From positions 47,557-111,556 of IMG/VR virus record IMGVR_UViG_3300023174_000090: a stretch of DNA of 64,000 bases; one strand, 5' to 3'. This DNA comes from a virus. This document shows positions 20,931 through 41,560 of this stretch, in pieces (the stretch's first letter is position 1; every line of letters starts with the position of its first letter). The position numbers and the translations under genes are program-made. The notes beneath the pieces are model-generated. The model was not told where the DNA came from. It did not search any database and was given only the letters and a program-made list of their open reading frames with translations.

Positions 20931-20937
20931 TATTTAT
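20931..20937 (-). promoter_or_regulatory. Late-type promoter element
   Basis: ATAAATA on the minus strand, 5 nt before ATG 20925, within the end of the upstream hub gene region. Confidence 0.45.
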
Positions 20938-20943
20938 TAGATA

Positions 20944-22194
20944 TCAAGCAGATTCAACTATGGATGCAAAATATACTGGACGCTGTATATCGCCTCCATG
21001 AAAAAACACCCACACCTTTGCAGATTCATTTGGAATGGAAAATATACCATTCGGAGATCCCCTTGCAGAGGTAAATACATCTTTACCAATTGAAAGTGCT
21101 AAGATTGCACTTAAATCATCATTTTTTACTATTTTGGGAGCAGCTTGGGAGTCTTCTGATTGATCCGTAGATGCCACAGTTGTATTAGCACCGGAAAGAT
21201 AATCTTCATAAGAATAAGATTCCGTGGAAGCCATTTTTTTTGCTAATAATTGTTGTTGATTTCTTGATAAATCTTTTTCTTGCTTCTTACCCTGAACTAC
21301 TTCTGTAATGTTTGCTATAGGACCGAATCCCGCACTTAATCTAGCGATTCCAGAACCATATTTATTTGCAGAGGGATATTTATTAGTAAAAATAAGATTC
21401 TCCGCATATTTTATTGCAACCTTAGTGTTAACTTCGGGATCTGCCCATGCTCCTGAACTAAGATCTTTTGCTGTTAATGTGCTGTTTTCCTTTCCTAATT
21501 GATAGAGTCCTACTGATGTTGCACTATCAAAGGAAACTGCTTTACCTTCCCTATTAGAGGTGTTAGAGGGATTGAGAGTAGTTTCCACAACCGCCAATCT
21601 GGCTAAAAAATGTGCAACCTCCTCCCTCGAACTACTATAAATTCCATATGTTTCTCTCTCTTTAGCGGAAAGAGGCATTCCGACGAGTTTACTTCCCTCC
21701 AATAATCTATACACCCTTTCATATTGAGCTTTAAATACGGGATTCATATTAGAAGTATTAATAGTTCCTCCATAAGAAAGTGAAAGTGGTTGTTCTGCAT
21801 TTCCATCACTCGTTAACAAAGCTGTAGAATTTGCAATAGTATCGGATTCTGTTGAACTTACCGTTCCTCCACCCGAGAATCCAGTAAATGTGGGATTTGT
21901 ATTATTTACAGCAATATTTCCACTGCTAGAATTTGATGTTACAGACGTTGCTCCTCCGAATATGGGAACAGCAGCCTCTGCCCACGGTAAAATTTGTTTT
22001 AATTTATTCAATACACCCAAACTAGCCAATTCTGTAGTATTTCTAAATTGAATATCGGATAAATTTTCTCTATTATTCCAATCTTTAAATAAAGTAGTTG
22101 ATAAATGAGGAATAAACACCTGAACTCTTCCCCTGTTCTCTGGATCATTTGTATTAACGACCATTCCTAAGTGATTTCCTACTACTAATTCCAT
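20944..22194 (-). CDS. 5: Baseplate hub with inserted muramidase/transglycosylase (gp5-like)
   Basis: 416 aa. Residues 1-80 form the first part of a gp5-type OB fold (GMVVNTNDPENRGRVQVFIP; LPWAEAAVPIFGG) and 380-414 its last strands (SPNGIFSIP; KVWVFFHGGDIQRPVYFASI). Between them lie a Ser/Thr/Gly-rich linker and a lytic-transglycosylase-like domain at about 185-300 with Glu 204 in LAVVETTLNPS and SVGLYQLG (227-234). It would cut peptidoglycan during tail penetration. T4 gp5 instead carries its T4-lysozyme-type domain after the OB fold. Gene order hub-spike supports the role. Confidence 0.85.
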   Translation of the reverse strand: MELVVGNHLGMVVNTNDPENRGRVQVFIPHLSTTLFKDWNNRENLSDIQFRNTTELASLGVLNKLKQILPWAEAAVPIFGGATSVTSNSSSGNIAVNNTNPTFTGFSGGGTVSSTESDTIANSTALLTSDGNAEQPLSLSYGGTINTSNMNPVFKAQYERVYRLLEGSKLVGMPLSAKERETYGIYSSSREEVAHFLARLAVVETTLNPSNTSNREGKAVSFDSATSVGLYQLGKENSTLTAKDLSSGAWADPEVNTKVAIKYAENLIFTNKYPSANKYGSGIARLSAGFGPIANITEVVQGKKQEKDLSRNQQQLLAKKMASTESYSYEDYLSGANTTVASTDQSEDSQAAPKIVKNDDLSAILALSIGKDVFTSARGSPNGIFSIPNESAKVWVFFHGGDIQRPVYFASIVESA

Positions 22195-22203
22195 AATTTA
22201 TTA

Positions 22204-23571
22204 TTATTCGGGCTTTTGATATACGGAAAATTTTTCTATAGTAGTTCCAACCCACCCAAAAGGATTTAAACTGATATTTAATGGGGGTAAATTTCCCGAT
22301 ATTCCTGAAATACTATACGGATATGGATTTATTGTGTCATTTATATTAATTCCATATCCTCCGTTTCTGTACCATTCACTTCTATTGCCAACAGTTCCTG
22401 CTGTTGCTAATACATCCCCTATCGGTCCTAATGATGCACCCAATCCATATCGTTGAACAATAGTATTTGCAATTGCAAGAGCCTCATTATTAGAAGAAAC
22501 TCCAAATCCTATGTGTTGCACCAACTTTCCAAGCAATGCTTGGGGTAAATTTCCGACATATCTTATAAAATCTGTAACTTGTTTTGCTTCATTTGGAAAA
22601 AGAGTAGCCAAACCATTCAAAGGATCATATGCAAAATTAACCCCAAACGATGCATAATTCACAACAGTTTGAATAGCATTCAAAGTTTGAAAAAGATTAT
22701 CAGATCCCTTGAATAATTGTGCAAAAAATCCAACATCATCCAATATTGTTTGAACTGCTTCTAAAATTAAACATATAAGACTCAAGGGTATGATACTTTC
22801 AATAACGCTTATCAAATATTGTTGAACCATTCTGTATATATTATTCAACCATACGTATAATTGTTTTATTGCTAACACCATTCCTTGATATATTTCCACA
22901 ATTGCTTGATAAAATGCTGTAACTGCTCCCGTAATAAACCACATTGCTTGTGATAACCCCCCAAAAGAATCAGAAGGAAGAGACAAATATGATCTAGTGC
23001 GTATAACATTACATATATTTTCAATTTCATCAACCATTCCGGGGTGTATCGAATTTAACAAGTCTGCACCCAAACAAGGAGCATTAACACCGGGACCTGT
23101 CATAATATTAAAATTATTATGTGCAGAAAATCTTGTAAAAGATCCATTAGAACCAATATCTTTCAATTCATCTTTACGTCCTGCGGGAGTATTTTTTAAA
23201 AGTTCTTCAAATTTATTCGATTTAATATAAGTTATAAATTCTTTATATAAATCTGGAGTTATTGTAACCGAATCTGATCCAATATAATCAAATTTTGTGT
23301 AAATCGCATCATATCCTTCAATCAATATGTATAAATAAGCAGCATATTTGTTTTCATTGGGCATTACACTATGTTTTATCTTGTAAAGAACTCCATTAAA
23401 ATCAAAAGCAAGTCCCGTTTTAACTTCCATAGTAGCTATTGATATAGATTCTGCACTATTTTGTAAAACATTGTTGACAGAAACTCTAATAGCAGATAAA
23501 CCACCCGTCACAGAAGATGCGGTTTTCTTTATACTGGCTGCTAACGGATTTTTTGGTATTGCTTTTTCCAT
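22204..23571 (-). CDS. Hub-associated protein with hydrophobic helices
   Basis: 455 aa, not recognised. Residues about 205-330 contain several long hydrophobic or amphipathic segments (MWFITGAVTAFYQAIVEIY; YLISVIESIIPLSLICLIL). The flanks are polar, with a Gly/Asn/Pro-rich C-terminus. It starts the three-gene minus run with hub and spike, so a role in the central baseplate or a membrane-interacting tail component is plausible. It is headed away from the dNMP kinase gene. Confidence 0.65.
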   Translation of the reverse strand: MEKAIPKNPLAASIKKTASSVTGGLSAIRVSVNNVLQNSAESISIATMEVKTGLAFDFNGVLYKIKHSVMPNENKYAAYLYILIEGYDAIYTKFDYIGSDSVTITPDLYKEFITYIKSNKFEELLKNTPAGRKDELKDIGSNGSFTRFSAHNNFNIMTGPGVNAPCLGADLLNSIHPGMVDEIENICNVIRTRSYLSLPSDSFGGLSQAMWFITGAVTAFYQAIVEIYQGMVLAIKQLYVWLNNIYRMVQQYLISVIESIIPLSLICLILEAVQTILDDVGFFAQLFKGSDNLFQTLNAIQTVVNYASFGVNFAYDPLNGLATLFPNEAKQVTDFIRYVGNLPQALLGKLVQHIGFGVSSNNEALAIANTIVQRYGLGASLGPIGDVLATAGTVGNRSEWYRNGGYGININDTINPYPYSISGISGNLPPLNISLNPFGWVGTTIEKFSVYQKPE

Positions 23572-23587
23572 AATTAAATGATATAAT
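23559..23587 (+). promoter_or_regulatory. Sigma70-like promoter of dNMP kinase gene
   Basis: TTGCTT, 17 nt spacer, perfect TATAAT; 9 nt to ATG 23597. It overlaps the start of the divergent hub-associated gene. Confidence 0.65.
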
Positions 23588-23596
23588 CTGTATTCG

Positions 23597-24211
23597 ATGT
23601 CTAAATCTATAATCTATCCTCCAATTGGAATTTCAGGCTCCGCTTTATCAGGAAAAGATTCTTTATGTACATATATTATTTATATTCTCGATCTATATTA
23701 CAATATAAAGGCTAAAAGATGTTCAATTGCAGGAGATAAAATAAAAAACGACCTGAAGGAGATGTTATTTTCAAAAATAGGAGCAGAAATTGACCTAAAC
23801 GACCCGATACAGAAGGAAAAAGTTCGTCCATTGATGGTTGAATATGGAAGATATATGAGAAATCGCACAATGGGTAGATATTTTATAGAAAATATAGACA
23901 ATTCCCTCTTCGGAAAGGGATATATTCCCATAATTCCCGACATTCGATATGCAGAATTCGAAAAAGATGAAATTTTTTGGCTTAAAACTGAAAAAAAAGG
24001 ACTTTTAATCTTTATTGATAGGGAAAATAACCCACCCGCAAACGAATTTGAAGAAAAAAACAATATTATTTTAAAAAAAGAGGCAAATATTGTAATAAAT
24101 GCTCCAAATCTCTTTTCAACTGAAAAATATTTAGATTTTATGGAAGATTATGTATATGATATTATCACCACTTACCTACGGGACATCTCTCCGCTTTTAG
24201 ATAAGTCTTAA
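23597..24211 (+). CDS. Deoxynucleoside monophosphate kinase
   Basis: 204 aa. P-loop GISGSALSGKDSLC at about 12-25 has the G-x-S-G-K-D form of phage dNMP kinases (T4 gp1 type). VRPLMVEYGRYMRNR and DIRYAEFEKDEI are further family-like features for base and phosphate binding. It converts dNMPs to dNDPs, feeding replication together with ThyX, NrdAB and dUTPase. It is a lone plus-strand gene inside the minus-strand structural block, with its own sigma70-type promoter, and its 3' end overlaps the opposite gene by 47 nt. Confidence 0.85.
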   Translation: MSKSIIYPPIGISGSALSGKDSLCTYIIYILDLYYNIKAKRCSIAGDKIKNDLKEMLFSKIGAEIDLNDPIQKEKVRPLMVEYGRYMRNRTMGRYFIENIDNSLFGKGYIPIIPDIRYAEFEKDEIFWLKTEKKGLLIFIDRENNPPANEFEEKNNIILKKEANIVINAPNLFSTEKYLDFMEDYVYDIITTYLRDISPLLDKS

Positions 24212-24476
24212 TTGCCATATTACATCCACATTTTGAGCATCTTTGACTCTCTTTAATAAAGAATTCACATCCATTACATATGGATAATCTGCGATTTGCT
24301 TCTTCCTGAGAGATGTTTAAAGAATTTCCACTCGCTACGCTTGCAACATTTCTAACAACACTACCTGCCAAGTTCTTAGCCATTGTAAAATTTGATGGAA
24401 GTTGTTGTTTTGTGCTCGATTGTAACTTTTTGATACGATCACTTTGTAAGCTTTTTATTAAAGAATTTCTATCCAT
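24165..24476 (-). CDS. Zinc-ribbon protein, conserved in phage baseplate clusters
   Basis: 103 aa. The C-terminal zinc-binding segment CNGC-(x9)-CSKCGC-(x12)-C (about 68-100), ending CPVGKW, is a pattern found in small phage proteins near hub genes. The N-terminal half is helical and basic. Preceded by a GATAAATA late element. It overlaps the 3' end of the dNMP kinase gene. Role unknown; assembly or structural is likely from position. Confidence 0.75.
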   Translation of the reverse strand: MDRNSLIKSLQSDRIKKLQSSTKQQLPSNFTMAKNLAGSVVRNVASVASGNSLNISQEEANRRLSICNGCEFFIKESQRCSKCGCNMAIKTYLKAERCPVGKW

Positions 24477-24478
24477 AC

Positions 24479-26194
24479 TTAATATTTATCTGTTTTGACG
24501 TCCCAATGTTTGTTAAATGTATCTAATTTAGAACAAATAACATCTGTCGTATATGTTTCTCTTGTAAATCGATGCTTTACATTTAAAATCATCCATTGTC
24601 CTAAAAATCTATCATCAAATACATTATTATTTCCACTAGAAGAATCTTTATCTACAAACAAAAACCTTCCGGGACTTCTATTTGTAAGTCCCAAAGTCCT
24701 AAAATAAAGAGCTTGTCCCAATAAACACAACGATCTTAACATGTGAATTTGAGAATTTCTTGTAGAAAAGAATTTTCTAACATTATGAATGTTATTTGTT
24801 AATAATCCACTACTTTTTGTTTTATTAATATTCATTAATATTTCCGCATTATTATTTTTAGATTTAAAACTATACAAACCTTCTTTAGCAAACTCTTTTA
24901 TCTTATTGTAAGCATCTTCTATTGTATTTTCTTTAAAAAATATGTTAAATTGATTGGATTCGAAATCATAATTATGAGAAGGAGTATTAGCAAGATTCAA
25001 ATCATCAACAGGTAACATTGGAACAAATTTATAATCAAGTATTTTAGATGCAATTCCGGAACTAAAGTTTTTGATAGTCCCTTCCTGTGTCAAATCTGCC
25101 CTTGGAAAATATGGAGGTAAATCAGAATTGCCCATCGTATCTGTAACACTTATATGTTCAACTTGTTGTTTGCTCGAATCTTGTATTAATGTCTTTAGAG
25201 AAGTTAAATAAAATTTTTTCCCACCCTCAACATCATGCCTATCCAATTCTAAAAATACCGGACCTCCGTTTTCTGATTCAAAATCATTCATTACATAATT
25301 TAAATCGCCAATTGCCGATTCATTTGTGGGCGATGTATATAATATCATACCATCATTTCCAGCTACACCCTTATCCCAACGGTCATTATCAAAATTATCA
25401 AAGCGAGTTTTTTCATAAATAATCGAGGATTTTTCATTAAAAGAAGAACCATTTAAAATAGCAGCTTGAGTTCGTTCTACCCCAACTTCTATATAAGGTT
25501 TTTCTGATTTCGGAGAATCAAATTGTTTAGAACTGAAGTTAGGATCCGAATCATTAGATGCTGCTGCTTTTATGATAGATTGTATAGCATCGCTTATTGG
25601 CATGGACCTTTGAGTATCTGATGCATCTATATTTCCCTGATTAGGACCGTATAATGCAGTGGACCATTCTAATTTACGCTCACTCATTATTTGGTATCGT
25701 TCTTCTTGAAAATAAAATTTACGTCTTTTTATTTCAGAATTATCAGTTTTTAAATCCTCTATATCATATATAATCAATTCAAAAGACATTTCCCAATATT
25801 CTTTAGGAAGTTCTATATCTTTTACAATAGGAAATATTTTTAAATAAACTTTGTTTCTGCCATCACTTCTAAATGCAAAAGGGGAATCTATTTTATAAGT
25901 TGGATTTTTTTTATTCGTGGATAATGGATACGACCCTCTTTCAAAAAACTCAAAATCATTAACTAAAACTACGTATCCCTTAGTGTTCCAACTTTCTAAT
26001 GTTTCTTCGATAACCAATTCCTCTATAAAAAAGAACGGAATTTTTATAGGTTTAAAATTATCTAATTGATTATCCATCCAAGTTTCAATATAAAACAATT
26101 GATTTCCAATCTGAACGGTAAATGCTTCATCTGTTATTGCTATAATATCTGAAGGAGCCTCCCTGTTTATATTGGATACTTGTGTAAGATTCAT
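24479..26194 (-). CDS. Baseplate hub protein, gp27-like candidate
   Basis: 571 aa from ATG 26194; a TTG at 26206 would overlap the upstream gene and is less likely. Mostly beta-rich N-terminal half. The C-terminal region (LGQALYFRTLGLTNRSPGRF, then FLGQWMILNVKHRFTRETY) matches the usual end of hub proteins that form the pseudo-hexameric ring between spike and tube. It lies one gene from the tube-like protein at 26200-26799. T4 gp27 is 391 aa, so this version is enlarged. Identification is by pattern and position. Confidence 0.6.
   Translation of the reverse strand: MNLTQVSNINREAPSDIIAITDEAFTVQIGNQLFYIETWMDNQLDNFKPIKIPFFFIEELVIEETLESWNTKGYVVLVNDFEFFERGSYPLSTNKKNPTYKIDSPFAFRSDGRNKVYLKIFPIVKDIELPKEYWEMSFELIIYDIEDLKTDNSEIKRRKFYFQEERYQIMSERKLEWSTALYGPNQGNIDASDTQRSMPISDAIQSIIKAAASNDSDPNFSSKQFDSPKSEKPYIEVGVERTQAAILNGSSFNEKSSIIYEKTRFDNFDNDRWDKGVAGNDGMILYTSPTNESAIGDLNYVMNDFESENGGPVFLELDRHDVEGGKKFYLTSLKTLIQDSSKQQVEHISVTDTMGNSDLPPYFPRADLTQEGTIKNFSSGIASKILDYKFVPMLPVDDLNLANTPSHNYDFESNQFNIFFKENTIEDAYNKIKEFAKEGLYSFKSKNNNAEILMNINKTKSSGLLTNNIHNVRKFFSTRNSQIHMLRSLCLLGQALYFRTLGLTNRSPGRFLFVDKDSSSGNNNVFDDRFLGQWMILNVKHRFTRETYTTDVICSKLDTFNKHWDVKTDKY
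24483..24489 (-). promoter_or_regulatory. Late-type promoter element
   Basis: GATAAATA context on the minus strand, 6 nt before ATG 24476. Confidence 0.5.
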
Positions 26195-26199
26195 ATACG

Positions 26200-26799
26200 T
26201 TAACAATTAGTCGAATTTACATCAGATAATAAATCTACACTTAATCTACTAAAAATAAAAGTTGCAGTACATATAATTTCTGAACCGGATTGGAAAGAAA
26301 AATCTATAGGACTGAGACTTGTTATAAATGCATTTTCATATTTAAATTCAATTACTTTATTATTAAATTCATCCAATCCAAAAACACTAAATGTTGCCAT
26401 ATAATCTGACATTGGATTTTTTAATATTAATTCTTTTTGGGTAACAACTGCCGCTGCCGCAACATCGCTTGTACTATTTTGGTTATCATTGAATAGATTC
26501 AACCATTTCCATAATATCCAATAATTTTGATATCCATTATCTATTAAAAATTTTAAAGACAATGCTTCATATGCAGGTCTCGAAAAACTAGAGGTATTAT
26601 AAACCTGACCCCCAAAAGAAATGGCTTTTTCTGGTATTTTTATATTCGGAACAGGAGAACCAAATGTAGTGAATTGTATTTTATTTGCACTATAAGAATC
26701 CTGCATTACCAAATCTGAGGTTTTTTTTAAATTTTTAGGCAAGTCCATGACAAATAAAAATTTATCATTTCTAGATCTGTTTAAAATTGTTTGATTCAT
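26200..26799 (-). CDS. Tube-fold protein of baseplate/tail (gp19/gp54-like)
   Basis: 199 aa. FTTFGSPVPNIKIPEKAI and the following hydrophobic/aromatic LSLKFLIDNGYQNYWILWKW are typical of tail-tube-fold proteins, with a C-terminal strand IICTATFIFSRL. It probably forms a ring of the tube near the baseplate rather than the main tube, which is encoded at 34952-35521. It lies 5 nt from the hub gene. Confidence 0.6.
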   Translation of the reverse strand: MNQTILNRSRNDKFLFVMDLPKNLKKTSDLVMQDSYSANKIQFTTFGSPVPNIKIPEKAISFGGQVYNTSSFSRPAYEALSLKFLIDNGYQNYWILWKWLNLFNDNQNSTSDVAAAAVVTQKELILKNPMSDYMATFSVFGLDEFNNKVIEFKYENAFITSLSPIDFSFQSGSEIICTATFIFSRLSVDLLSDVNSTNC

Positions 26800-26802
26800 A
26801 TA

Positions 26803-28656
26803 TTAAAATAATACAATTGGCTTATATTCTTCTGTAGGAGCTGTTGATTTGGATTTGTCGAAAGCATCTTTCTCATTTGTATGTGCCTGTAGAAGCCACA
26901 TATATAACTTATCTCTGTCTTCCGAATATAAATCAAATCCCGTTTCAATATCCATACCACCAACATGTGAATACGGAGTATTTATAGAAGGCTTTCTTAC
27001 AATAGTAGATCCTCCTCCTATTAACAACTTACTATTTTTAATTAATTCACTATTATCAGTTATTGGTAAAATTTTTAACGGTCTTCCTTGATCATCTAAA
27101 TCTTGAACTATAAAATATTTTCCAACCAAAGTTGGATCGAGTATAAATAATGCCCATATGAGACCAAAAACTCTATCATCTAAATCCTTTTCAGATTTTT
27201 TTGAAAAAGTATAATTCGGAAGTTTAATAAAATTATCAATTTCTAATACGGTATCAATATCATTTAATTTTACACATTTTAAACTATTAATCCAATATCT
27301 AAAATTTGTTATACCTTTATATCTGGTATTTGTGTGATTGTGAATTCCAAATCTGTGAGTGTTGTTATAGTGTTTACTAAATCCTTCAAAATGATAAGAT
27401 ACAACATTTTCATAATTATGCGTTTGGCATAAAACATCTAAAATTTGCTGTCCATTGTTATTATTTTCAACAAGAATAGGAGGTCTTCCCCAATCTTCTA
27501 AAACGCCCATTAGACGAGTTCCAAAATGAAAAGGATTTATATTATTAGAAGCAAAAATAGCTACTTGTTGTATGTTCTGTAAATCAGAAACATCAAGTAT
27601 CTGAGCAACTGAATTTGTTCTTCCGATTCCTTCTCCCACATCAACACCTATTACATAATAACTTTTAGGATCTGGAAATTTAAAAATTTTATATGCACCT
27701 TCATCCAAAACTAAAACAGGTTCTGGACAATTTTGTTTTAACTGATTTAAATATTCCTCATCAACAACACTTTTATTCGGATCGTGAAATTTATTACCAT
27801 ATTCTTGATCAAAATCTTCTTTCGATCCCATTAATGAAATGGTATCCTCTTTCCATTTATCGTCTCTTCCGGGGACATCCCACCAATTTACAACTTCTAA
27901 ATTCCAACCACTATTAGGTTTTTGGGCATCTTCATATAGTTCATAGAATTTATTATCCTTTCCGTTTGGAGTGGATATAACAACTATCTGAGATTTTTTC
28001 ATAGAAGAAATAATTGGAATTGCAGATCTCCAAAGCTCCTTCATCAAGTCATTAGGACAATGTGCCATTTCATCTATGATTAGAAGATTACTTGTAGTTC
28101 CTCTAGGACCGGATGTTGAGGTTGTACTAATAGTTATTGCAGAGTCATTTCCAAGTATAAAACCATCCTTTCTCCAAGATTTTATAGGAGGTTTTAAATA
28201 TATAGGAAGTTGCTCATACGACATCTTAATTCTAGCAAATATTTCTTTGGCAGTTGCCTCTTTATTAGCAACTATTGTTATTCTTTTATCTGATTGAAAA
28301 CATACCAACCATAAAGCATATATGGTTATGGTAGTGGTTTTGCCCGATTGACGTGAACTTAAAATAACGTTAAATCGTTCATTTTTAAATGATTTTAAAA
28401 GACGTTTTTGATATTTATATAATTCTATTTTTTTCTTCCCATCTTCTGTTATTATATAAAAATAATTTTCCGCAAAATGTAAAATACTTTTAACACATGT
28501 TTTCAATTCGGACTTCATATCTTCAGTCCATTTGAAAAGTGCATCTTTTCTTAAAATATTTTCATTCCCTTGGTAGAATTTTCCATCGACTAATATTTCA
28601 TCAATATCTATATCATCTACAGAATTTTCTTCTTTTTTTACTTTTTTTCTGGGCAT
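26803..28656 (-). CDS. 17: Terminase large subunit (gp17-like)
   Basis: 617 aa packaging motor (T4 gp17 is 610). ATPase: Walker A SRQSGKTT (101-108), Walker B LLIIDEMAHC (191-200; D195, E196), coupling motif VVISTPNGKDN (225-235). Nuclease (RNase H fold): GVDVGEG with Asp 339, ILVENNNNGQQ with Glu 397 and a late DDRVFGLIW. All expected catalytic acids are present. It cuts and translocates concatemeric DNA into proheads. No small terminase gene is apparent beside it. An upstream CTAAATA late element and GATAGG lie just before its ATG. Confidence 0.95.
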   Translation of the reverse strand: MPRKKVKKEENSVDDIDIDEILVDGKFYQGNENILRKDALFKWTEDMKSELKTCVKSILHFAENYFYIITEDGKKKIELYKYQKRLLKSFKNERFNVILSSRQSGKTTTITIYALWLVCFQSDKRITIVANKEATAKEIFARIKMSYEQLPIYLKPPIKSWRKDGFILGNDSAITISTTSTSGPRGTTSNLLIIDEMAHCPNDLMKELWRSAIPIISSMKKSQIVVISTPNGKDNKFYELYEDAQKPNSGWNLEVVNWWDVPGRDDKWKEDTISLMGSKEDFDQEYGNKFHDPNKSVVDEEYLNQLKQNCPEPVLVLDEGAYKIFKFPDPKSYYVIGVDVGEGIGRTNSVAQILDVSDLQNIQQVAIFASNNINPFHFGTRLMGVLEDWGRPPILVENNNNGQQILDVLCQTHNYENVVSYHFEGFSKHYNNTHRFGIHNHTNTRYKGITNFRYWINSLKCVKLNDIDTVLEIDNFIKLPNYTFSKKSEKDLDDRVFGLIWALFILDPTLVGKYFIVQDLDDQGRPLKILPITDNSELIKNSKLLIGGGSTIVRKPSINTPYSHVGGMDIETGFDLYSEDRDKLYMWLLQAHTNEKDAFDKSKSTAPTEEYKPIVLF

Positions 28657-28658
28657 AC

Positions 28659-29015
28659 CTATCTATTTAGTTGGTTTTTTAATTCCGAAAGTACATAAGA
28701 AACCAATTGAGATTTTAATATTTTCAATTCTTTACCCGCCTCTGGCATTATTACAGGATTTTTAATATTATTATATGTACAAATTAACCACCAAAGTTCC
28801 ATTGTGTTATAATTTTTAAAAGATATTAGAGGCCATGTATCATTTTCCTTAACATAATATGAGATTTCTGCATTTGAATTATTAGACGGAAAAACATTTA
28901 TAGATCTTAATAAATTATAAAATCTAAAATTATTATCATCTTCATAGACATTTAAAAAATTTTCATATCTATATAAAGATAAGTTAGGGAGATCTGTAAT
29001 CGAGTTTTGTTTCAT
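28659..29015 (-). CDS. 53: Baseplate wedge protein gp53-like (LysM fold)
   Basis: 118 aa, shorter than T4 gp53 (196). N-terminal YRYENFLNVYEDDN, then a LysM-like domain (YYVKENDTWPLISFKNYN; LWWLICTYNNIKNP; GKELKIL), the usual pattern of phage gp53/LysM baseplate proteins. It lies 4 nt from the upstream tube-cap gene and just before the terminase, within the late block. Confidence 0.75.
   Translation of the reverse strand: MKQNSITDLPNLSLYRYENFLNVYEDDNNFRFYNLLRSINVFPSNNSNAEISYYVKENDTWPLISFKNYNTMELWWLICTYNNIKNPVIMPEAGKELKILKSQLVSYVLSELKNQLNR
28664..28670 (-). promoter_or_regulatory. Weak late-type promoter element
   Basis: CTAAATA on the minus strand, 7 nt before ATG 28656. Confidence 0.35.
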
Positions 29016-29019
29016 AACA

Positions 29020-29961
29020 TTATTCAGGAGTTGGAGGTATAATTACCTTTACTTTATTTGAATCTGAAAAAGAACCCGATAAAATATTTACACTATCCTC
29101 CATTAACGATTCTAATGTAATTTCTATTTTATATGCTTCCGGTATTAAACACGCTTTTCCGTCTCCAATATCTACGGATCGAGTAGTTCCTATCGACTTT
29201 ACATCAAGAGATGACATATATGCAGCAGGCATGTATAGTCCTTTAAAATTAAGACCTTCTGCAAGATAAAGACTCGGAGCGATATGAGTCAAAAAACTAG
29301 TTTTAGTTTTTACGTTTTGAAGTTGTAACAGTTGACATAAATAAAAATTATCTTTAGTGTTTTTTAAGCTAACAGTATTGTATAGTGGAAATGATATTGA
29401 TATGGACCTTTTACTAGTGTTTCCGAAAAAACTAGGAGGCTCAAATCCAAATCCGGTAGAAAACATAGATGCAACATCCTTTCCCTTTTCGATATATCCC
29501 CCGAAAAAGGGTATGTTAGAAAGCTCAACGGGTTTCCAAGTGTTTTTTATATTTCCAGTAACACTGGCAGCATTTCCCACAAAATATGGAAAGTTATATA
29601 TAAAGCCAGTTTCCATACCCGTATATAACTGTTGATATGGATCCATACCCGCAGTGCTATCGGTAATAGGAGCATCATATATGCTACCAACACTTGAAAC
29701 ATTTTTTAAATATTCCCAAACGTTACTAAGATTTTGCAGCCATTTTCCTTTGGTAAGTTTATATTCTGTCAATTGTATTGATGGAACTTCACTATTAATT
29801 TCAGTATTATTTGATTGTATATTTCTCCACGAAAAATTATTCACAACATCAATAGGATTACTACCCACTCCGATAGTATTAACAACAGGATATTTATACG
29901 ACAAACTTCCTGATGTTGAATCTGCATCATTTAAAATAAACAAAGGACTTGTATATGCCAT
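29020..29961 (-). CDS. Baseplate tail-tube cap, gp48/gp54-like
   Basis: 313 aa. The C-terminal half has SISISFPLYNTVSLKNTKDN, LNFKGLYMPAAYMSSL and IPEAYKIEITLESLM, which match the conserved part of T4 gp48/gp54 proteins that nucleate the tail tube on the baseplate. The N-terminal half is specific to this phage. It sits between tape measure and gp53, as expected for tail-initiation genes. Confidence 0.7.
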   Translation of the reverse strand: MAYTSPLFILNDADSTSGSLSYKYPVVNTIGVGSNPIDVVNNFSWRNIQSNNTEINSEVPSIQLTEYKLTKGKWLQNLSNVWEYLKNVSSVGSIYDAPITDSTAGMDPYQQLYTGMETGFIYNFPYFVGNAASVTGNIKNTWKPVELSNIPFFGGYIEKGKDVASMFSTGFGFEPPSFFGNTSKRSISISFPLYNTVSLKNTKDNFYLCQLLQLQNVKTKTSFLTHIAPSLYLAEGLNFKGLYMPAAYMSSLDVKSIGTTRSVDIGDGKACLIPEAYKIEITLESLMEDSVNILSGSFSDSNKVKVIIPPTPE

Positions 29962-29966
29962 ATATA

Positions 29967-29973
29967 TATTTAT
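29967..29973 (-). promoter_or_regulatory. Late-type promoter element
   Basis: CATAAATA context on the minus strand, 5 nt before ATG 29961. Confidence 0.5.
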
Positions 29974-32165: not shown

Positions 32166-32192
32166 ATATAATACTTAATATATATGTCATTT
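32157..32192. repeat. Perfect 14-bp inverted repeat over tape-measure start
   Basis: Arms 32157-32170 and 32179-32192 are exact reverse complements with an 8-nt loop. The minus-strand ATG (32165-32163) is inside one arm. A T-run follows on the plus strand. Confidence 0.85.
32172..32178 (-). promoter_or_regulatory. Variant late-type promoter element
   Basis: TTAAGTA on the minus strand in the loop of the inverted repeat, 6 nt before ATG 32165. Confidence 0.35.
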
Positions 32193-32208
32193 TTTTATAT
32201 TTATGAAA

Positions 32209-33015
32209 TTAATTTGATATAAAAATCAAACTATCTGCTTCTAAAATTTTAGTATATTCTAAATAAGAAACTTCCGACACCGCATTTATTTCGTTTTTAA
32301 TATTCATTATACTTTGCAATATATTTTGTATTAAAGTTGCAGGAAGTTTTTCCACAATTTGAATCTTCTGTGGAATATGTAATGAATCGTAATTAATATC
32401 ATTATCATTTATATGTATGGATTTAATATATTTTGCAGTTTCTCCTATAAATGCATCTGTTATAAGATTTTTTATATCATCTACATTATTTTCTTTTCTT
32501 TCTTTATTATAAATATAGGAATCAAAATCGCCCTCCGCATAAAATTTTGGTATACTTAAAATAACATTGACTGAAATTTCATTTTTAGCATACGTAACAT
32601 TTTTATTTTCAGGATGTTTAAATGATTTATATTTATCTAAAATAGAAAGTATGTTAATATCAGATTGAATTTTAGGATCTTCAGAAAAAATAACATTTAT
32701 TGTTTCTGAAATTTGACTCCTTATGTGAAAAGCTATAGAATTTTTATCTATAATAGTAAGAGTTTTAAGCACTTCCGCATCCTCTTCACAATTAGAGGAT
32801 AAAATTTCATAAAATATTTTAGAAAATGTTGATTTGGAAACAGAAGAGTCAATTGCAGACTCTATAATAGTTTTTTGTTGTTTGGCGTTTATTTCTTGAA
32901 ATCGAATAGTACGCTCCAAAGAAGGAACCCATGCATCCACATAAAAATTTTCTTTTGCTATTTTATTTAATTTATTTAAAGCGTCTGTAAAATTTAAAAT
33001 ATTATTTTCGTTCAT
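32209..33015 (-). CDS. Baseplate hub/assembly protein, gp26-like
   Basis: 268 aa from ATG 33015; an upstream ATG at 33042 would overlap the previous gene. FYVDAWVPSLERTIRFQEI followed by NAKQQKTIIESAID (about 25-60) is the typical opening of T4 gp26/gp51-type baseplate hub assembly proteins. The rest is helical. It pairs with the upstream gene, which has a similar opening, and both precede the tape measure, the usual place of tail assembly chaperones. Confidence 0.65.
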   Translation of the reverse strand: MNENNILNFTDALNKLNKIAKENFYVDAWVPSLERTIRFQEINAKQQKTIIESAIDSSVSKSTFSKIFYEILSSNCEEDAEVLKTLTIIDKNSIAFHIRSQISETINVIFSEDPKIQSDINILSILDKYKSFKHPENKNVTYAKNEISVNVILSIPKFYAEGDFDSYIYNKERKENNVDDIKNLITDAFIGETAKYIKSIHINDNDINYDSLHIPQKIQIVEKLPATLIQNILQSIMNIKNEINAVSEVSYLEYTKILEADSLIFISN

Positions 33016-33020
33016 GCAAT

Positions 33021-33028
33021 AATTTATA
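33021..33028 (-). promoter_or_regulatory. Late-type promoter element
   Basis: TATAAATT on the minus strand, 5 nt before ATG 33015; supports that start over the upstream ATG. Confidence 0.45.
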
Positions 33029-33031
33029 CAA

Positions 33032-33955
33032 TTATCCACCATATTCAAGCATTAAATCTTGTAAATTCGTTGATTGAGAAGTTGACTCTTGAGCATTTTG
33101 ATTTCTATATTCCATTTCTTCTTCTATGAATGAAAAGAAAACCCTTCTATCGGATATTGATAAATTATCTACATATTGGGGATTTATATTTTTAGATGCC
33201 AACATATAATATTCTTGATATATATTTCTCAAATCGCCAAAACTAAATAATAATCGCAAAAAATAAGGTATTGAACTATTAAAAAAATTTAATTTTAAAG
33301 AATCTAATCTAGATATTTTAAAAAAATTTATATCGCTTGTGGATTTTAACATATCGTATATAGAAGCTTCTATTTTGGATTTCAAAGTTACTGGAAACTT
33401 TTCATACAAATTATTTTTTTCATTGGAATTTAATTGTGAAAATTCAATAAGAGAATTTTCAACATATAATTTACTTATAAACTCATAAAATGGATAATCA
33501 TACAATTTTTTATCTGTATTAAAATAGAGTCCATCGGATTTAAAATTTGGTATATCTAATTTACATTCAATGTTTTTATAAGATATTTTTTCTTTAAAAA
33601 TTGAATTAAAATGTTGATATATTGATATCATAAGATTATTTAAATTTAATGTTATTGTTATATTTTTATTATTTTCATTTAATATTAACTTTAATTCATC
33701 TCCAATACTAATATTACGTATTTTTATTGCATAAAGAAAAAACTCTATTAAATTTATATCTTTTAAATCTTCTTTATTTTCTGTGCAGTTTTCTAATATT
33801 TTTTTTAATATTCTATAAAATTCTGCATGATTTTCTTCATTTTCTGAAGGAAATATAATATTTGTTTTTGATAATATAAGCTGCTCTTTTGTATTAAATT
33901 CTCTATAATAGAGAACTTTTTTAGAAAATGGCATCTCCGAAGAATAAACGTACAT
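33032..33955 (-). CDS. Tail assembly protein, gp26/gp51-like paralog
   Basis: 307 aa. The opening KKVLYYREFNTKEQLILSK resembles the conserved start of gp26/gp51-type proteins (target-binding then K-E-Q). The body is Asn/Lys/Ile-rich and helical, with NLQDLMLEYGG at the end. Probably a chaperone or transient hub component acting with the next gene on the tape measure. No close motif allows a firmer call. Confidence 0.55.
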   Translation of the reverse strand: MYVYSSEMPFSKKVLYYREFNTKEQLILSKTNIIFPSENEENHAEFYRILKKILENCTENKEDLKDINLIEFFLYAIKIRNISIGDELKLILNENNKNITITLNLNNLMISIYQHFNSIFKEKISYKNIECKLDIPNFKSDGLYFNTDKKLYDYPFYEFISKLYVENSLIEFSQLNSNEKNNLYEKFPVTLKSKIEASIYDMLKSTSDINFFKISRLDSLKLNFFNSSIPYFLRLLFSFGDLRNIYQEYYMLASKNINPQYVDNLSISDRRVFFSFIEEEMEYRNQNAQESTSQSTNLQDLMLEYGG

Positions 33956-33961
33956 TATTTT

Positions 33962-33968
33962 TATTTAT
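33962..33968 (-). promoter_or_regulatory. Late-type promoter element
   Basis: CATAAATA context on the minus strand, 6 nt before ATG 33955. Confidence 0.5.
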
Positions 33969-34924
33969 GGTTTTAATTTAAATGGTAGTTTACTTATATT
34001 AAATTTTGATCTTGTAACCCCACCAATTGTCGTTTGTTCTAAATTTCCATATTCAATATTCATAGTTGTCGTTACTTGACCATTATTTTTTTGTCTATTT
34101 TCATTAATAGAAAATCCTGTAACACCAACATCATTACTTGTTTTATTTTGTAAAAAATTTGTATCAGCATTTAAAAAAGAAGAATCTCCGGATTTTTCGT
34201 TGGATTGTGCAGCTAATATACAATATGAATCATAAACAAAAGAGACTCTATATTTCTGTACAGAAGTATCGATATTGTATGATAAAGAAGAACCCTCCAC
34301 AGTAATAGGTGCTACATTAAAAAATCTTATTATTTTTCTATTTATTTGATTAATTCCCGATCCGTTCTTACCATAAAAAAGAATATCTAATTTAGGCAAT
34401 TTAATATTTTTTGTAGCATCTGATCGAGTTACAAATCCATAGTGTCCGGTCAAAATCATCCATTGTCTAATAAATAAATCAACAAACGAAAGATTTGTTT
34501 CTAAAAATGAAACAGTAAATTTTTGATAATTTCCTCTACCTTTTGAAGTTACTGGTGCTTGGAAAGCACCAAATTGTAATCCCTCATTAGAGGCGTCTAT
34601 AGTATCACTAGGCAATGACACATCAGACGCAAATGCACAAAATGGATATATATCATGAGGGTTTGTATTTGATTTACTTGCGAATATTTCTATTATTTTT
34701 TTACTGACTTCCCACGAATCTGCACCACCTATCATTTCCAAATTCTTTAAAGTTGTTAAAAAATTAGATTTTAATAGCGGTAAATCATTTATCTCAATAT
34801 ATATACACCATTGAGTAGATGCGGGTATTGAGGTGGGCCATCTACTCAATATATCGAGATACATTGGTATTGGACCATTTAGATTCTCATATCCAAAAGG
34901 AACCGCTTTTGCGTTTTCAGCCAT
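33965..34924 (-). CDS. Second tail-tube-fold protein
   Basis: 319 aa. FVDLFIRQWMILTGHYGFV and the strand pattern around it (KLDILFYGKNG; IIRFFNVAPITVEGSSLSY) resemble tube-fold proteins such as gp19 or gp54. It follows the main tube gene directly. The N-terminus (FGYENLNGPIPMYLDILSR) and the C-terminal about 80 residues are extra. It may form the tube-baseplate junction or the tail terminator ring. Confidence 0.55.
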   Translation of the reverse strand: MAENAKAVPFGYENLNGPIPMYLDILSRWPTSIPASTQWCIYIEINDLPLLKSNFLTTLKNLEMIGGADSWEVSKKIIEIFASKSNTNPHDIYPFCAFASDVSLPSDTIDASNEGLQFGAFQAPVTSKGRGNYQKFTVSFLETNLSFVDLFIRQWMILTGHYGFVTRSDATKNIKLPKLDILFYGKNGSGINQINRKIIRFFNVAPITVEGSSLSYNIDTSVQKYRVSFVYDSYCILAAQSNEKSGDSSFLNADTNFLQNKTSNDVGVTGFSINENRQKNNGQVTTTMNIEYGNLEQTTIGGVTRSKFNISKLPFKLKP

Positions 34925-34930
34925 ATCAAA

Positions 34931-34937
34931 TACTTAT
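34931..34937 (-). promoter_or_regulatory. Variant late-type promoter element
   Basis: ATAAGTA on the minus strand, 6 nt before ATG 34924. Confidence 0.4.
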
Positions 34938-34951
34938 TCGTTTGATATGTT

Positions 34952-35521
34952 TTAAGGTTTTGCTATAAGAGGAGACGTTTCGGGTTGTACCCAGAATTGA
35001 TACGCAAGAGTTACCTGTTGAGTAACAATTTCACCAGCAGCAGTTACATCTAAATTGTATGTTCCTACCTTAGTACAATAGGCTCCCATTAAGTTATAAA
35101 CTCTTATAGGGGTTCCATCCTTACCCATTAAAGCAATGCCAATTTGACCCAAATCTCTTAAATTATACGCACCTGTAGATGTTGCATCATCAAACGTAGC
35201 TCTCGTCCATAATTCAAGTTTTTTTCTAATAGATAAATCTTGAGGCATTCTGAACGTAACGTTCCATGCATTACTTCCGGGATAACTTGCGGTTCCGGGG
35301 ACATTAAACTGAAGACCCATAAAAGGAACTTGCACATTTTTAATCTCTCTATCCGGAAGAGAAGTAGTTGTTATATAAACTAATTCTTCTCTATCAAATA
35401 CTATATCCGAAGCTCCGGACGAAATATAGAGAACTCTGAAAAGATTTGTTCTAGCAAAATCCTTTGACAAGGCAGCTTCGAAGAAGTTATTGATATCTTG
35501 ATGTTGAAATAAGTTTGGCAT
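34952..35521 (-). CDS. 19: Tail tube protein (gp19-like)
   Basis: 189 aa (T4 gp19 is 163). Recognisable gp19 features are the N-terminal F-F-x-A-x-S-K-D-F-A-R segment, ITTTSLPDREIKNVQVPFMG, WNVTFRMPQDLSIRKKLELW and VYNLMGAYCTKVGTYNLD. It forms the inner tube through which DNA passes. It directly follows the sheath gene, the conserved gp18-gp19 order. Confidence 0.9.
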   Translation of the reverse strand: MPNLFQHQDINNFFEAALSKDFARTNLFRVLYISSGASDIVFDREELVYITTTSLPDREIKNVQVPFMGLQFNVPGTASYPGSNAWNVTFRMPQDLSIRKKLELWTRATFDDATSTGAYNLRDLGQIGIALMGKDGTPIRVYNLMGAYCTKVGTYNLDVTAAGEIVTQQVTLAYQFWVQPETSPLIAKP

Positions 35522-35526
35522 ATTAA

Positions 35527-35533
35527 TATTTAT
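35527..35533 (-). promoter_or_regulatory. Late-type promoter element
   Basis: GATAAATA context on the minus strand, 5 nt before ATG 35521. Confidence 0.5.
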
Positions 35534-35535
35534 CC

Positions 35536-37728
35536 TTAGCTAATAAGTTCGTCGAAATTAACACCTGTTCTAGTGGCTATGAAATCTGCCAATATGAATT
35601 CAGCAGTTCTAACGGGCTGAATGTATACGGAAAGTCTCATTTCATTATTGTCTATAACATCCGGTGTATTGTTTCTTTCGTCGCATACAATTCTATAATC
35701 ATACAAACCATCATTATTTCTGGCCTGATTGAATACAGGGGCAAGAGCGTTAACTAATCGTGTTCTTGTTGTGAATGTATTTGGTTCAAATACAAAATAC
35801 TTTAAAAGATTTTCTGTAGTTTTTTCTAATGTTAAGAACAATCTTCTAACATTAATTCTATCAAATGCGGATGGTTTTGTGAAAAGTGTCTTTTGTCCAA
35901 AGATTACGTATCCATCACCGGGGAAAAACGCTATAGGATTGACATTAATTCTATATAGTAAATCACGTTGTTTTTGCGTTGGATTTATTGCAAGATCAGA
36001 TACGTTTGTTAACACGCCTCTAGTAAATCCAGCAGGAGAAGTCCAAGGGAATGCAACGCGAGAAGTTTGCGCGAAAACAGCGGCAGCATATGCAGACGCA
36101 GGAATCCAGACTTGCTTATCGGAGCTTAAATCAGTAGTTTTTACCCAATTTCCATATGTAGTCGAATAGCTGGAAACGTTAGATGCGAACAGGTTTTTGA
36201 GAGGCCAGTACACATCTTTAGCAAAAACATAATCACTATTTTTAGTAACTTTAGAATTCGATCCTTGAATGAAAATATACCTAAGAGGATCTGCAATGAA
36301 AACGTGATCCTTTCTAGTAATATCAGCAAATGATACAAATTGTGAAGCAATATCTTGATAGTCTGAAACAATTCCACCAATAGGATCATTTGTTTGCTCT
36401 TTTAAATCTGTAACTGAAACATTAAAGGTTTCATCAAATATTTTGGGCGTATATGTGCCCCCTTCTTCATGTTCCCATTTCTTTTTAGCACCCACCCAAA
36501 TAGTTCCTAAACCAGCTTCGGCGGTAACATCCAAGTCAATATCTAAATTATTAATGTTATTGAGAATTCTCTGAAGTTTGAGAGGGACATTTCCAACATC
36601 ACCAGCAATTGTATCGGTATCGGAAACATAAACTCCTTCTGAGAATAGATTTTTGGATCCAGCATTTAATCTCACGGTTCTTGCGGGAAGTCCATTACTA
36701 GCCAACCAAGTTCCTCGTTGAGATACAAAAGGATTTGTTAAAACTTTTACAGATGATGAATTTTTATCAACTATAGAATCCAAGAAGAAAGAGACAGGAG
36801 GACCGCCGTTTCTATCATTTTGAGTACGTTTTGCATATAAAGATCCGGTATACCCTTCAGTTGGAATAGCATCTAATACTACAGTATCTTGAGCGTAAAT
36901 GGATGTTCTAACTTTAAACACCATGAGAGTAAGACAATCATTATAAAATGATGTTCCGAAATCAAAATCTCTCGGAAATTGCTCAACAATTTCCGAAATA
37001 CTTGTACCAGCAGCCGAAAATGCTTGTGTTAATGAGAAATTAAAACGAGATGAAGGAACAACACTAAATGTTTGATAATTTCCATTAACTATGTCAGAAG
37101 CTGCTTTAATTCCTGTTATGGATACAAAATCACTTGCAGGATTGTTTTCTGAATTATCAGCAATAGCAACATAATATCCTTCATACAAATTGTTAATAGT
37201 GGATTTTTTCGTATCAACAACCACTAAACCGCCTTTTGTTTGTAAATCCTCAAAGCTTAATATTTCATCATCTACGTAAGAACTTGCCCATGTAACATTA
37301 TTTTCTGTTAAGTCGAGATATTCTTGATCGGTGAGCAATATAGATTTAGGAGGTCTGATTTCAAATGCTGTAGAATCTCCATATTCAGTTTCGTTGCCAC
37401 TAATTGGATACACTAATGCAGTATATTGATTTGAAAATCCTTCACCCGCACCTGAACCATATGGCATTCTAGTAACCAAAAGATTTGTAGGAGATTGAGT
37501 TAAAAGTTGTCTAGCGGAGTGATAAAGATATCTTTCAGCTGAATTGGTTGGACTTCCGAAAATGCTTTCAAATTCGGAAATACTTCCTACATTAATAATT
37601 TCATCAGTCGGACCCTCTGCTGCGAATCCTGTAATAAAAGTGTTCGTAACGCCAACGGGTCTTGCAATTAAGCTAAGATCTACTTCATTAATTTGTACAC
37701 CGGGAGATGCTATTGTTCTAGTTGCCAT
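35536..37728 (-). CDS. 18: Contractile tail sheath protein (gp18-like)
   Basis: 730 aa (T4 gp18 is 659). N-terminus RTIASPGVQINEVDLSLIAR, GVTNTFITGFAAEGPTDEI and the C-terminal VNARR-like stretch (RINVRRLFLTLEKTTENLLK; YFVFEPNTFTTRTRLVN) are hallmarks of myophage sheath proteins. Contraction drives the tube through the envelope. It starts the minus-strand tail operon, divergent from 37814. The leader is longer than at neighbouring genes and holds GGTAAATA. Confidence 0.95.
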   Translation of the reverse strand: MATRTIASPGVQINEVDLSLIARPVGVTNTFITGFAAEGPTDEIINVGSISEFESIFGSPTNSAERYLYHSARQLLTQSPTNLLVTRMPYGSGAGEGFSNQYTALVYPISGNETEYGDSTAFEIRPPKSILLTDQEYLDLTENNVTWASSYVDDEILSFEDLQTKGGLVVVDTKKSTINNLYEGYYVAIADNSENNPASDFVSITGIKAASDIVNGNYQTFSVVPSSRFNFSLTQAFSAAGTSISEIVEQFPRDFDFGTSFYNDCLTLMVFKVRTSIYAQDTVVLDAIPTEGYTGSLYAKRTQNDRNGGPPVSFFLDSIVDKNSSSVKVLTNPFVSQRGTWLASNGLPARTVRLNAGSKNLFSEGVYVSDTDTIAGDVGNVPLKLQRILNNINNLDIDLDVTAEAGLGTIWVGAKKKWEHEEGGTYTPKIFDETFNVSVTDLKEQTNDPIGGIVSDYQDIASQFVSFADITRKDHVFIADPLRYIFIQGSNSKVTKNSDYVFAKDVYWPLKNLFASNVSSYSTTYGNWVKTTDLSSDKQVWIPASAYAAAVFAQTSRVAFPWTSPAGFTRGVLTNVSDLAINPTQKQRDLLYRINVNPIAFFPGDGYVIFGQKTLFTKPSAFDRINVRRLFLTLEKTTENLLKYFVFEPNTFTTRTRLVNALAPVFNQARNNDGLYDYRIVCDERNNTPDVIDNNEMRLSVYIQPVRTAEFILADFIATRTGVNFDELIS

Positions 37729-37741
37729 AATTTATAATAAC

Positions 37742-37748
37742 TATTTAC
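37742..37748 (-). promoter_or_regulatory. Candidate late-type promoter element
   Basis: GTAAATA on the minus strand, 13 nt before ATG 37728; the same spacing as at the acidic protein gene (41540). A second TATAAATT abuts the ATG. Confidence 0.4.
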
Positions 37749-38883: not shown

Positions 38884-38891
38884 TTTTATAC

Positions 38892-38920: not shown

Positions 38921-38926
38921 ATATTG
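38905..38926. repeat. Perfect 9-bp inverted repeat over a -10 box
   Basis: CAATATATA at 38905-38913 and TATATATTG at 38918-38926, 4-nt loop. It covers the promoter -10 and ends 3 nt before ATG 38930; possible operator. Confidence 0.75.
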
Positions 38927-38929
38927 CGT

Positions 38930-39364: not shown

Positions 39365-39629
39365 AAATACTATTGAATGGTGGGAAAAAACTCACAATGA
39401 AGCATCTATGTTATCTAAGTGGATGGCATTGTACGAGGCGGTTAATATCATATCCGATAAAGCAGAAGAACGAGGAGTATCACCGGAAAAAATTGTTTAT
39501 AAGCCAAAAGCTATAAAAGATTACATATCCTCCACAGAGGATATCATTCTTAATAAAATCTTGAGAAGCGATTATGGAATAGATGTTTGTTATTCCGAAG
39601 ATGATAATTTTGATGTGAATATTATTTAA
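39345..39629 (+). CDS. Hypothetical small helical protein
   Basis: 94 aa (ATG 39354 is an alternative start). IEWWEKTHNEASMLSKWMALYEAV is amphipathic, followed by charged helices. It overlaps the previous gene and ends tail-to-tail (4 nt overlap) with the neck-like gene. Not recognised. Confidence 0.6.
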   Translation: MQKMKTKNTIEWWEKTHNEASMLSKWMALYEAVNIISDKAEERGVSPEKIVYKPKAIKDYISSTEDIILNKILRSDYGIDVCYSEDDNFDVNII

Positions 39630-40255: not shown

Positions 40256-40257
40256 AA

Positions 40258-40602
40258 TTATTTTCTAGATAGCTTAAATTTTTTCGAATTGAAATCATAT
40301 GATAATGATATACCAGTTCTATTTAAAGATTTTTTATAGTTTTTATCTGGGGTGTGTTTTATTCTATAAGTTTTTGCTAACCTAATTCCATCCGCATTGC
40401 TTATATTCCAATTACCTTTTTTGTCGTTTTTTACTATTCTGTTAACCAAAGGATCCTCTTTCATTCCATCCACACCATAGCATCTAGCTACTTGATTTTG
40501 ATGTTTTCTATCTATAGATCTGATTGGATTTTGATGATGAGTTCTTGTATTAGGAGTGAATCTTTCCTTAGAAGCATCAAAAAATTTTTTAAAAGTTTCC
40601 AT
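40258..40602 (-). CDS. Small basic protein
   Basis: 114 aa, strongly basic (many Lys, Arg and His). METFKKFFDASKERF is an amphipathic start shared in style with other virion proteins here. A perfect TATAAATA precedes it and a strong terminator isolates it from the gene upstream. Not recognised; late structural or DNA-binding protein is plausible. Confidence 0.6.
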   Translation of the reverse strand: METFKKFFDASKERFTPNTRTHHQNPIRSIDRKHQNQVARCYGVDGMKEDPLVNRIVKNDKKGNWNISNADGIRLAKTYRIKHTPDKNYKKSLNRTGISLSYDFNSKKFKLSRK

Positions 40603-40611
40603 TGTTATTAA

Positions 40612-40619
40612 TATTTATA
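40612..40619 (-). promoter_or_regulatory. T4-type late promoter element
   Basis: Perfect TATAAATA on the minus strand, 9 nt before ATG 40602 and just downstream of a terminator. Confidence 0.6.
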
Positions 40620-40629
40620 TCTAGAAACG

Positions 40630-40659
40630 AAAAAATCCGGTATTTCCACCGGATTTTTT
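40630..40659. terminator. Bidirectional intrinsic terminator
   Basis: Perfect 11-bp stem (arms 40630-40640 and 40649-40659), loop TATTTCCA, T-runs at both ends. It ends the minus-strand transcript from 41540 and insulates the late promoter at 40612-40619. Confidence 0.9.
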
Positions 40660-40688
40660 CTTGTTTTTTTGATTATCGATTTGTATGA

Positions 40689-41540
40689 TTACTGATCGAA
40701 AAGTCCCTTATTAACTTTAACGCCTCCAACATTTTGTTTGGATTTATTTGTAAGAGTATTTGGATCACACTTGAAGGGTTCTGGTTTACCAGAGAATTTC
40801 TTACCCTTTACAACTTGAGCCTTTTTCTTGGAAACAGGAACAGCACCATTCACTTTATTTGACTTGCTATCCAATTTCTTTTTAAGCTTTTCTTGATCTA
40901 CAATGGCATGACCTTCAATTTCAGCATCGACAGATTCTTTAGAAAGAGGAGTTTCATCATCTTCCTCGTCGTATATATCAGTTTCATCGCCAGAAAATTC
41001 ATCGGTTTCCATGTCTTCATCAGAATCCATGTCCATATCTTCAGATTCTTCCGAATCACTTCCTAAATATGTTTCTAATGCAGCAACAGCAGATTTGAGA
41101 TGATCTAAAACAGCTTCCAAACCTTCAGGTTCTTCTGAAAGTTCGTCTTCCATATCATCTAATGAGTCGCCATCTTCATCAGATAGTTCAGCATCAAAAT
41201 CCAAATCATCACCTTCGGAGTCTTCAATTTCACCGGAGAAATCCAAGGTGTCGCCCTCTTCATCACCGAAAGCTTCTTCAGCTACAATCTTGTTGAAAAG
41301 CAGATCGAATGGGTTTTTAGATTCGCTCTTAACAGATTTAGGAAGAGCGTCTGAATCAAATTCAGAATGTGGACCTTTAGTAGGTTTTTCTAAGTTTTTT
41401 ATTGCTTCTGGACCAGAATCTTTAGAGAGTTTCTTGGCCTTTTCAGCACCATCAAGTTCTCCTGTGTTGTCAGCAGCAACAGAGGAATTTTTCTTCGTTT
41501 CTTCGTTTAATACCGATAGATATGATTTCATGAATGACAT
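40689..41540 (-). CDS. Very acidic protein; candidate prohead core/internal protein
   Basis: 283 aa. N-terminus MSFMKSYLSVLNEETKK, then a long Asp/Glu/Ser-rich stretch (about 90-205, for example GDEEGDTLDFSGEIEDSEG) and a basic C-terminal third (KLKKKLDSKSNK; KKKAQVVKGKKFSG). Codons are less AT-biased than average and the gene is flanked by a GTAAATA element and a strong terminator, suggesting high late expression. Acidic proteins of this kind form the prohead core or are processed internal proteins; no gp22/gp67 signature could be confirmed. Confidence 0.65.
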   Translation of the reverse strand: MSFMKSYLSVLNEETKKNSSVAADNTGELDGAEKAKKLSKDSGPEAIKNLEKPTKGPHSEFDSDALPKSVKSESKNPFDLLFNKIVAEEAFGDEEGDTLDFSGEIEDSEGDDLDFDAELSDEDGDSLDDMEDELSEEPEGLEAVLDHLKSAVAALETYLGSDSEESEDMDMDSDEDMETDEFSGDETDIYDEEDDETPLSKESVDAEIEGHAIVDQEKLKKKLDSKSNKVNGAVPVSKKKAQVVKGKKFSGKPEPFKCDPNTLTNKSKQNVGGVKVNKGLFDQ

Positions 41541-41553
41541 ATGTTTGTAAAAA

Positions 41554-41560
41554 TATTTAC
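41554..41560 (-). promoter_or_regulatory. Candidate late-type promoter element
   Basis: GTAAATA on the minus strand, 13 nt before ATG 41540; AAGGAG lies further upstream, too far for a ribosome-binding site. Confidence 0.35.

Follow-up and report, generated by a model that had tools for sequence, protein, structure and literature searches.

The window analysed here is a stretch of 64,000 nucleotides (nt), bases 47557-111556 of the 111,556-base virus contig IMGVR_UViG_3300023174_000090 (record label G000; genome GC about 31%), and the element under study is a short motif, [A/G]TAA[A/G]TA, that lies directly upstream of many of its virion genes and appears to be a late promoter of the T4 type. 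Judged by its protein content, the source virus is a distant, deep-branching T4-like myovirus. It encodes structural proteins (sheath, tube, terminase, major capsid protein, protease and scaffold) together with replication and recombination proteins (UvsX, gp41, SbcC, SbcD, gp32, primase and a T4-type DNA polymerase). Compared with cultured phages, the tail tube is less than 30% identical, the major capsid protein about 35%, and part of the sheath protein no more than about 42%. Viral metagenomes contain many members of the family (56 sheath loci and 594 confirmed capsid stretches). When the sheath was scanned against genome contigs to find the host, no relative turned up.

The motif sites in the window are given below; distances to the start codon are the number of nt that separate the final A of TAA[A/G]TA from the ATG.

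20931-20937, minus strand: late motif ATAAATA, 5 nt before ATG 20925 (a 673-amino-acid late-cluster gene)
24483-24489, minus strand: late motif ATAAATA, 6 nt before ATG 24476
28664-28670, minus strand: weaker late motif CTAAATA, 7 nt before ATG 28656 (large terminase gp17)
29967-29973, minus strand: late motif ATAAATA, 5 nt before ATG 29961; its TAA doubles as the stop of the upstream gene 29970-32165
32172-32178, minus strand: late motif TTAAGTA, 6 nt before ATG 32165 (tape-measure-like gene)
33021-33027, minus strand: weak near-match ATAAATT (TATAAATT), 5 nt before ATG 33015
33962-33968, minus strand: late motif ATAAATA, 6 nt before ATG 33955; its TAA doubles as the stop of gene 33965-34924
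34931-34937, minus strand: late motif ATAAGTA, 6 nt before ATG 34924
35527-35533, minus strand: late motif ATAAATA, 5 nt before ATG 35521 (tail tube gp19)
37742-37748, minus strand: late motif GTAAATA, 13 nt before ATG 37728 (tail sheath gp18, for which a leader of about 8 nt is predicted)
40612-40619, minus strand: perfect TATAAATA, 9 nt before ATG 40602
41554-41560, minus strand: late motif GTAAATA, 13 nt before ATG 41540
1790-1797, plus strand: perfect TATAAATA, 10 nt before ATG 1808 (glycosyltransferase gene)
44685-44691, plus strand: late motif ATAAGTA, 10 nt before ATG 44702 (virion structural protein)

The initial annotation had placed ATAAATA-like motifs 5-7 nt before nine minus-strand starts. 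When the sites are read directly, NTAA[A/G]TA ends at this distance at eight of the nine, the exception being 33015 with its weak match. The two perfect copies of TATAAATA were likewise found where they had been reported; the gene at 1808 encodes a glycosyltransferase and is not an obvious virion gene. The suggestion that each gene has its own late promoter does not hold, as five genes of the cluster (22194, 23571, 26206, 26799 and 29015) have no match.

In the cluster at 18904-37728 (minus strand), NTAARTA stands 4-8 nt before 8 of 14 used starts, compared with 5 of 402 other same-strand ATGs (Fisher p = 1.7e-10). Over the whole record RTAARTA occurs 3-16 nt upstream of 27 of 123 genes, where dinucleotide shuffles predict 4.3. 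The perfect TATAAATA is not enriched as such (the window has 12 copies, where 14.4 are expected) and was for this reason dropped as the consensus. The consensus here is [A/G]TAA[A/G]TA, and the base at the position equivalent to -13 of T4 is not fixed. Five genomes, G000 and four relatives between 92 and 212 kb long, show 4.5 to 7.5-fold enrichment of the motif over shuffles. Unbiased discovery by expectation-maximisation in 255 non-redundant upstream regions of relatives, seeded with the most enriched 6-mers, recovers the same core as [A/G]TAA[A/G]TATTA, or RTAARTAWWA in degenerate form, with a core-to-ATG peak at 5-7 nt and a smaller second group at about 11-13 nt. A weight matrix trained on the relatives only gives 23 G000 genes at 8 bits or more (3.4 in shuffles). 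In the five genomes the spacing has its mode at 5-7 nt, a tail to about 16 nt and almost no cases below 4 nt, so that the earlier description of it as nearly constant was too strong.

The motif distinguishes classes of genes. With late and early classes assigned by homology alone and transferred to the relatives by BLAST, it is found at 27 of 45 virion (late) genes and at 1 of 61 replication or metabolism (early) genes of the five genomes; the pooled p-value (3e-12) is too small, because orthologues are treated as independent. G000 alone gives 7 of 10 late and 0 of 15 early genes (p = 0.00025). Many genes of the clade have sigma70-type promoters instead (67 strong matches against 5.6 expected); among the 181 late-motif genes just 5 have such a promoter. 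The -10 box of these promoters mostly ends 6-7 nt before the ATG (in the window, for example, at 8082, 44249, 50777 and 51164); early genes with a promoter of their own are therefore also predicted to be leaderless. Two examples in the window are:

8048-8075, plus strand: sigma70-type promoter TTGACA-16-TAATAT, -10 end 6 nt before ATG 8082 (DNA polymerase), the early-class counterpart of the late motif
44256-44284, minus strand: sigma70-type promoter TTGATA-17-TATACT, -10 end 6 nt before ATG 44249 (AAA ATPase)

A Shine-Dalgarno (SD)-like motif is present in 1 of 170 late-motif genes, and SD sequences are not clearly enriched in G000 as a whole (9 against 5.7). At G000:9394-10538 a divergent gene pair has both of its late motifs within a common palindromic stretch (GTAAATATTTATGGTAAATATTC).

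A homologue of the T4 late sigma factor gp55 is encoded at G000:44576-45226, 2.3 kb before the window start (phrog_234, E = 1.1e-27), so the objection foreseen in the initial annotation, a genome with no gp55-like gene, does not apply. Including this protein, homologues are present in 12 of 17 records (G000 and 11 of the 16 related ones). In alignments with the gp55 proteins of T4 and Syn9 it shares their sigma2-like core, and the surrounding genes (uvsY-like, uvsW, 55, 47) are in the T4-type order also seen in Syn9. The gp55 homologues of G000 and its relatives have a long acidic N-terminal extension and end without the clamp-binding motif of T4 gp55. The genome further encodes a gp44-type clamp loader (G000:8463-9389, E = 2e-78) and, in the window, a sliding clamp:

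16679-17434, plus strand: gp45-like sliding clamp with a PCNA fold (Foldseek E about 2e-10, TM about 0.7, from a modest model with pLDDT 65)

The acidic low-complexity sequence of 40689-41540 rules out this gene product as the clamp. Most DNA polymerases of the clade end in the clamp-motif-like DL[FI][DE]L[FL].

The presence of gp55 and a motif that marks virion rather than early genes both support the T4-type late promoter proposed in the initial annotation. The T4 late box is 8 bp long, with its first base at -13, and spans -13 to -6 (PMC2988020). Since its last A is at -6, a gap of 5 nt places +1 on the A of the AUG, and a floor of 4-5 nt with a mode of 5-7 nt is as expected if an mRNA must contain its AUG. 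RTAARTA would thus be equivalent to -12 to -6 of T4's TATAAATA and would be read by host RNA polymerase carrying the phage gp55-type sigma factor, probably assisted by the sliding clamp. Transcripts would begin on, or a few bases from, the A of the AUG, and most late mRNAs starting here would be leaderless or have a very short leader without SD. Many late genes would have their own promoter and the remainder would be transcribed by read-through from upstream; early genes would follow the same geometry from their sigma70-type promoters. We consider gp55-type late promoters that give leaderless or near-leaderless mRNAs on many, though not all, late genes to be the best reading, with a probability of about 0.83. 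The motif, its position and class specificity, the absence of SD and the presence of gp55, clamp and clamp loader are observed directly, and recognition by gp55, the exact +1 and leaderless translation are inferred from them.

Cultured phages provide the closest comparisons. The same analysis places the late box of T4, Syn9, Melnitz, phiM12 and DLP6 mainly 17-40 nt upstream, and SD sequences are enriched in these phages; Cr30 has too few motif matches to judge. T4 shares with the present genome the core element, the lack of a -35 element, the association with virion genes, a gp55-type sigma factor, a PCNA-type clamp and a gp44-type loader. Its boxes, however, are mostly 24-28 nt before the ATG with an SD between, whereas here the mode is 5-7 nt with no SD; the -13 T of T4 is not conserved here, gp55 has no C-terminal clamp-binding motif and the gp33 profile gives no match. 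The late promoters of T4-like cyanophages are NATAAATA in S-PM2 and Syn9 (PMC2984593). These phages resemble the present one in the relaxed first base, in a gp55 without the T4 C-terminal motif and in the uvsW-55-47 order, although the Syn9 boxes are 15-39 nt or more upstream. The Pelagibacter phage HTVC008M (NC_020484; L296, L298) has seven genes with a TAAATA box exactly 5 nt before the ATG and none at 4, 6 or 7 nt, and six of the seven have no SD by the scan used. Unlike here, its late programme appears to be a mixture of leaderless and leadered genes, with distant boxes and SD at the other late genes, and its SD sequences are enriched genome-wide (45 against 10). Mosig and P-HM2 have one gene each with a box at 5 nt. 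A homologue of ribosomal protein bS21 is encoded in one relative (G005:70324-70455; L305) and, by annotation, in the pelagiphages HTVC008M and Mosig; none was detected in G000. An ARAGORN tRNA-like sequence with a four-base anticodon (gacg) at 61152-61226 of the window is probably spurious.

Leaderless mRNAs occur in bacteria and in some phages, lambda cI being an example, and are usually confined to single genes. They share with the mRNAs predicted here the 5' AUG and the lack of SD; the difference is that here leaderless mRNAs are predicted for most motif-bearing genes, early and late. No description of leaderless late transcription in T4-like phages was found in the literature searched, which did not cover the Syn9 start-site study.

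Several observations weigh against this interpretation. The gp55 homologue lacks the C-terminal clamp-binding motif of T4, ending in ...NNKNIQKYE as compared with SLDFLYEAND; because Syn9 gp55 is also without it, this motif is not defining for the wider gp55 family. The search for gp33, advised in the initial annotation along with that for gp55, gave no match in G000 to the gp33 profile phrog_254. By synteny the gp33 slot is occupied by the following gene, a candidate for gp33, the predicted model of which has no Foldseek match among solved structures:

14370-14672, plus strand: strongly conserved 100-amino-acid helical protein starting MIITS[ST]QQ; its gene precedes a gp59-sized open reading frame (ORF) and gp32, as gene 33 does in the T4 order 33-59-32

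Roughly a third to a half of the virion genes have no motif directly upstream, among them the gene for the major capsid protein, gp23, which has none near its ATG and keeps a structured leader. Many sites are at 8-16 nt and so imply leaders of 3-11 nt, not zero. Single sites are uncertain because the motif is short and the genome AT-rich, and the pooled counts are not independent because the five genomes are related. In the search for gp33, small ORFs with a DNA-polymerase-like C-terminal clamp motif gave no conclusive candidate. PF20893 was a wrong guess at the family, its search having no match anywhere, controls included.

The gp23 gene is presumably the most expressed late gene. In many relatives a hairpin of the form GKTG-N-RG...CY-N'-GA is conserved about 25-40 nt before its ATG (record positions 4485-4545 in L009; L136-L208). 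The two positions covary: in each of the 27 leaders with the pattern, N is complementary to N' (A-T 10, G-C 9, T-A 8), a count to be read with the search's preference for complementary matches and the relatedness of the leader sequences. The pairing was found by the pattern-based approach, and RNAalifold on a plain MAFFT alignment gave no structure; the leader has no Rfam match. Many gp23 leaders contain an AGGAG-like sequence. In several relatives a late motif lies just before the hairpin, which would therefore sit at the 5' end of the transcript. The hairpin is a candidate for a new structured leader RNA. An HNH homing-endonuclease-like gene (L009:6125-7573; phrog_3339, E = 4e-116) directly follows the major capsid gene.

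The long gp23 leader speaks for a different account of the same sites, in which they are late promoters but transcription starts elsewhere, at downstream starts or with long leaders that are later processed, so that the mRNAs are not truly leaderless. The range of distances, 4 to 16 nt, and the late genes that have no motif also point this way. The floor at 4-5 nt and the exact 5 nt in HTVC008M nevertheless fit a rule of starting at the AUG, and SD sequences are absent where the motif is present; we regard this account as unlikely. Another alternative, named in the initial annotation, reads the motif not as a promoter but as an AT-rich signal for translation; it would act in the mRNA as a stretch just upstream of the AUG that is unstructured or binds ribosomes. 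In its favour, AT-rich leaders are common in low-GC genomes, the motif keeps a preferred distance from start codons and its genes have no SD. Early genes need translation equally, yet almost none has the motif (the 1 of 61 given above), and they carry -35/-10 promoters at the same place; T4 and most relatives have the same box 17-40 nt upstream, beyond the SD, and the genome has a gp55 gene. A translation signal is on these grounds quite improbable.

It might also be argued that the motif is a product of chance in a compact genome, in which AT-rich sequence fills the gap from an upstream TAA stop to the following ATG, as the two shared stop codons in the window (before 29961 and 33955) would suggest. 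Only 13 of 187 motif matches in the five genomes, however, coincide with a detected upstream stop, the excess over shuffles is about 6-fold, and early genes of the same genomes do not have the motif. This explanation is largely refuted and has very little left to recommend it.

Taken together with the gp23 leader, gp55-type late promoters close to the AUG raise the tentative possibility that in this uncultured T4-like clade most promoter-proximal genes, early and late, are leaderless, while a structured and often SD-bearing leader is kept for the major capsid gene; capsid and non-capsid mRNAs would then be translated by different initiation routes, each open to its own regulation by the phage. 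The spacing rule would help to locate late genes and their start codons, as well as start codons in general, in genomes of this kind. The placement of the box may also explain why a 2020 study could not predict late promoters in pelagimyophages (PMC7029224).

Replication-coupled transcription has a textbook case in the T4 late system, whose known late mRNAs are leadered and SD-bearing. If the present interpretation is true, the box has shifted across a large environmental clade so that +1 falls on the AUG, and the position of the promoter alone would have switched the mode of translation initiation; the switch would also be partly present in the cultured SAR11 phage HTVC008M, which would make the idea testable in culture.

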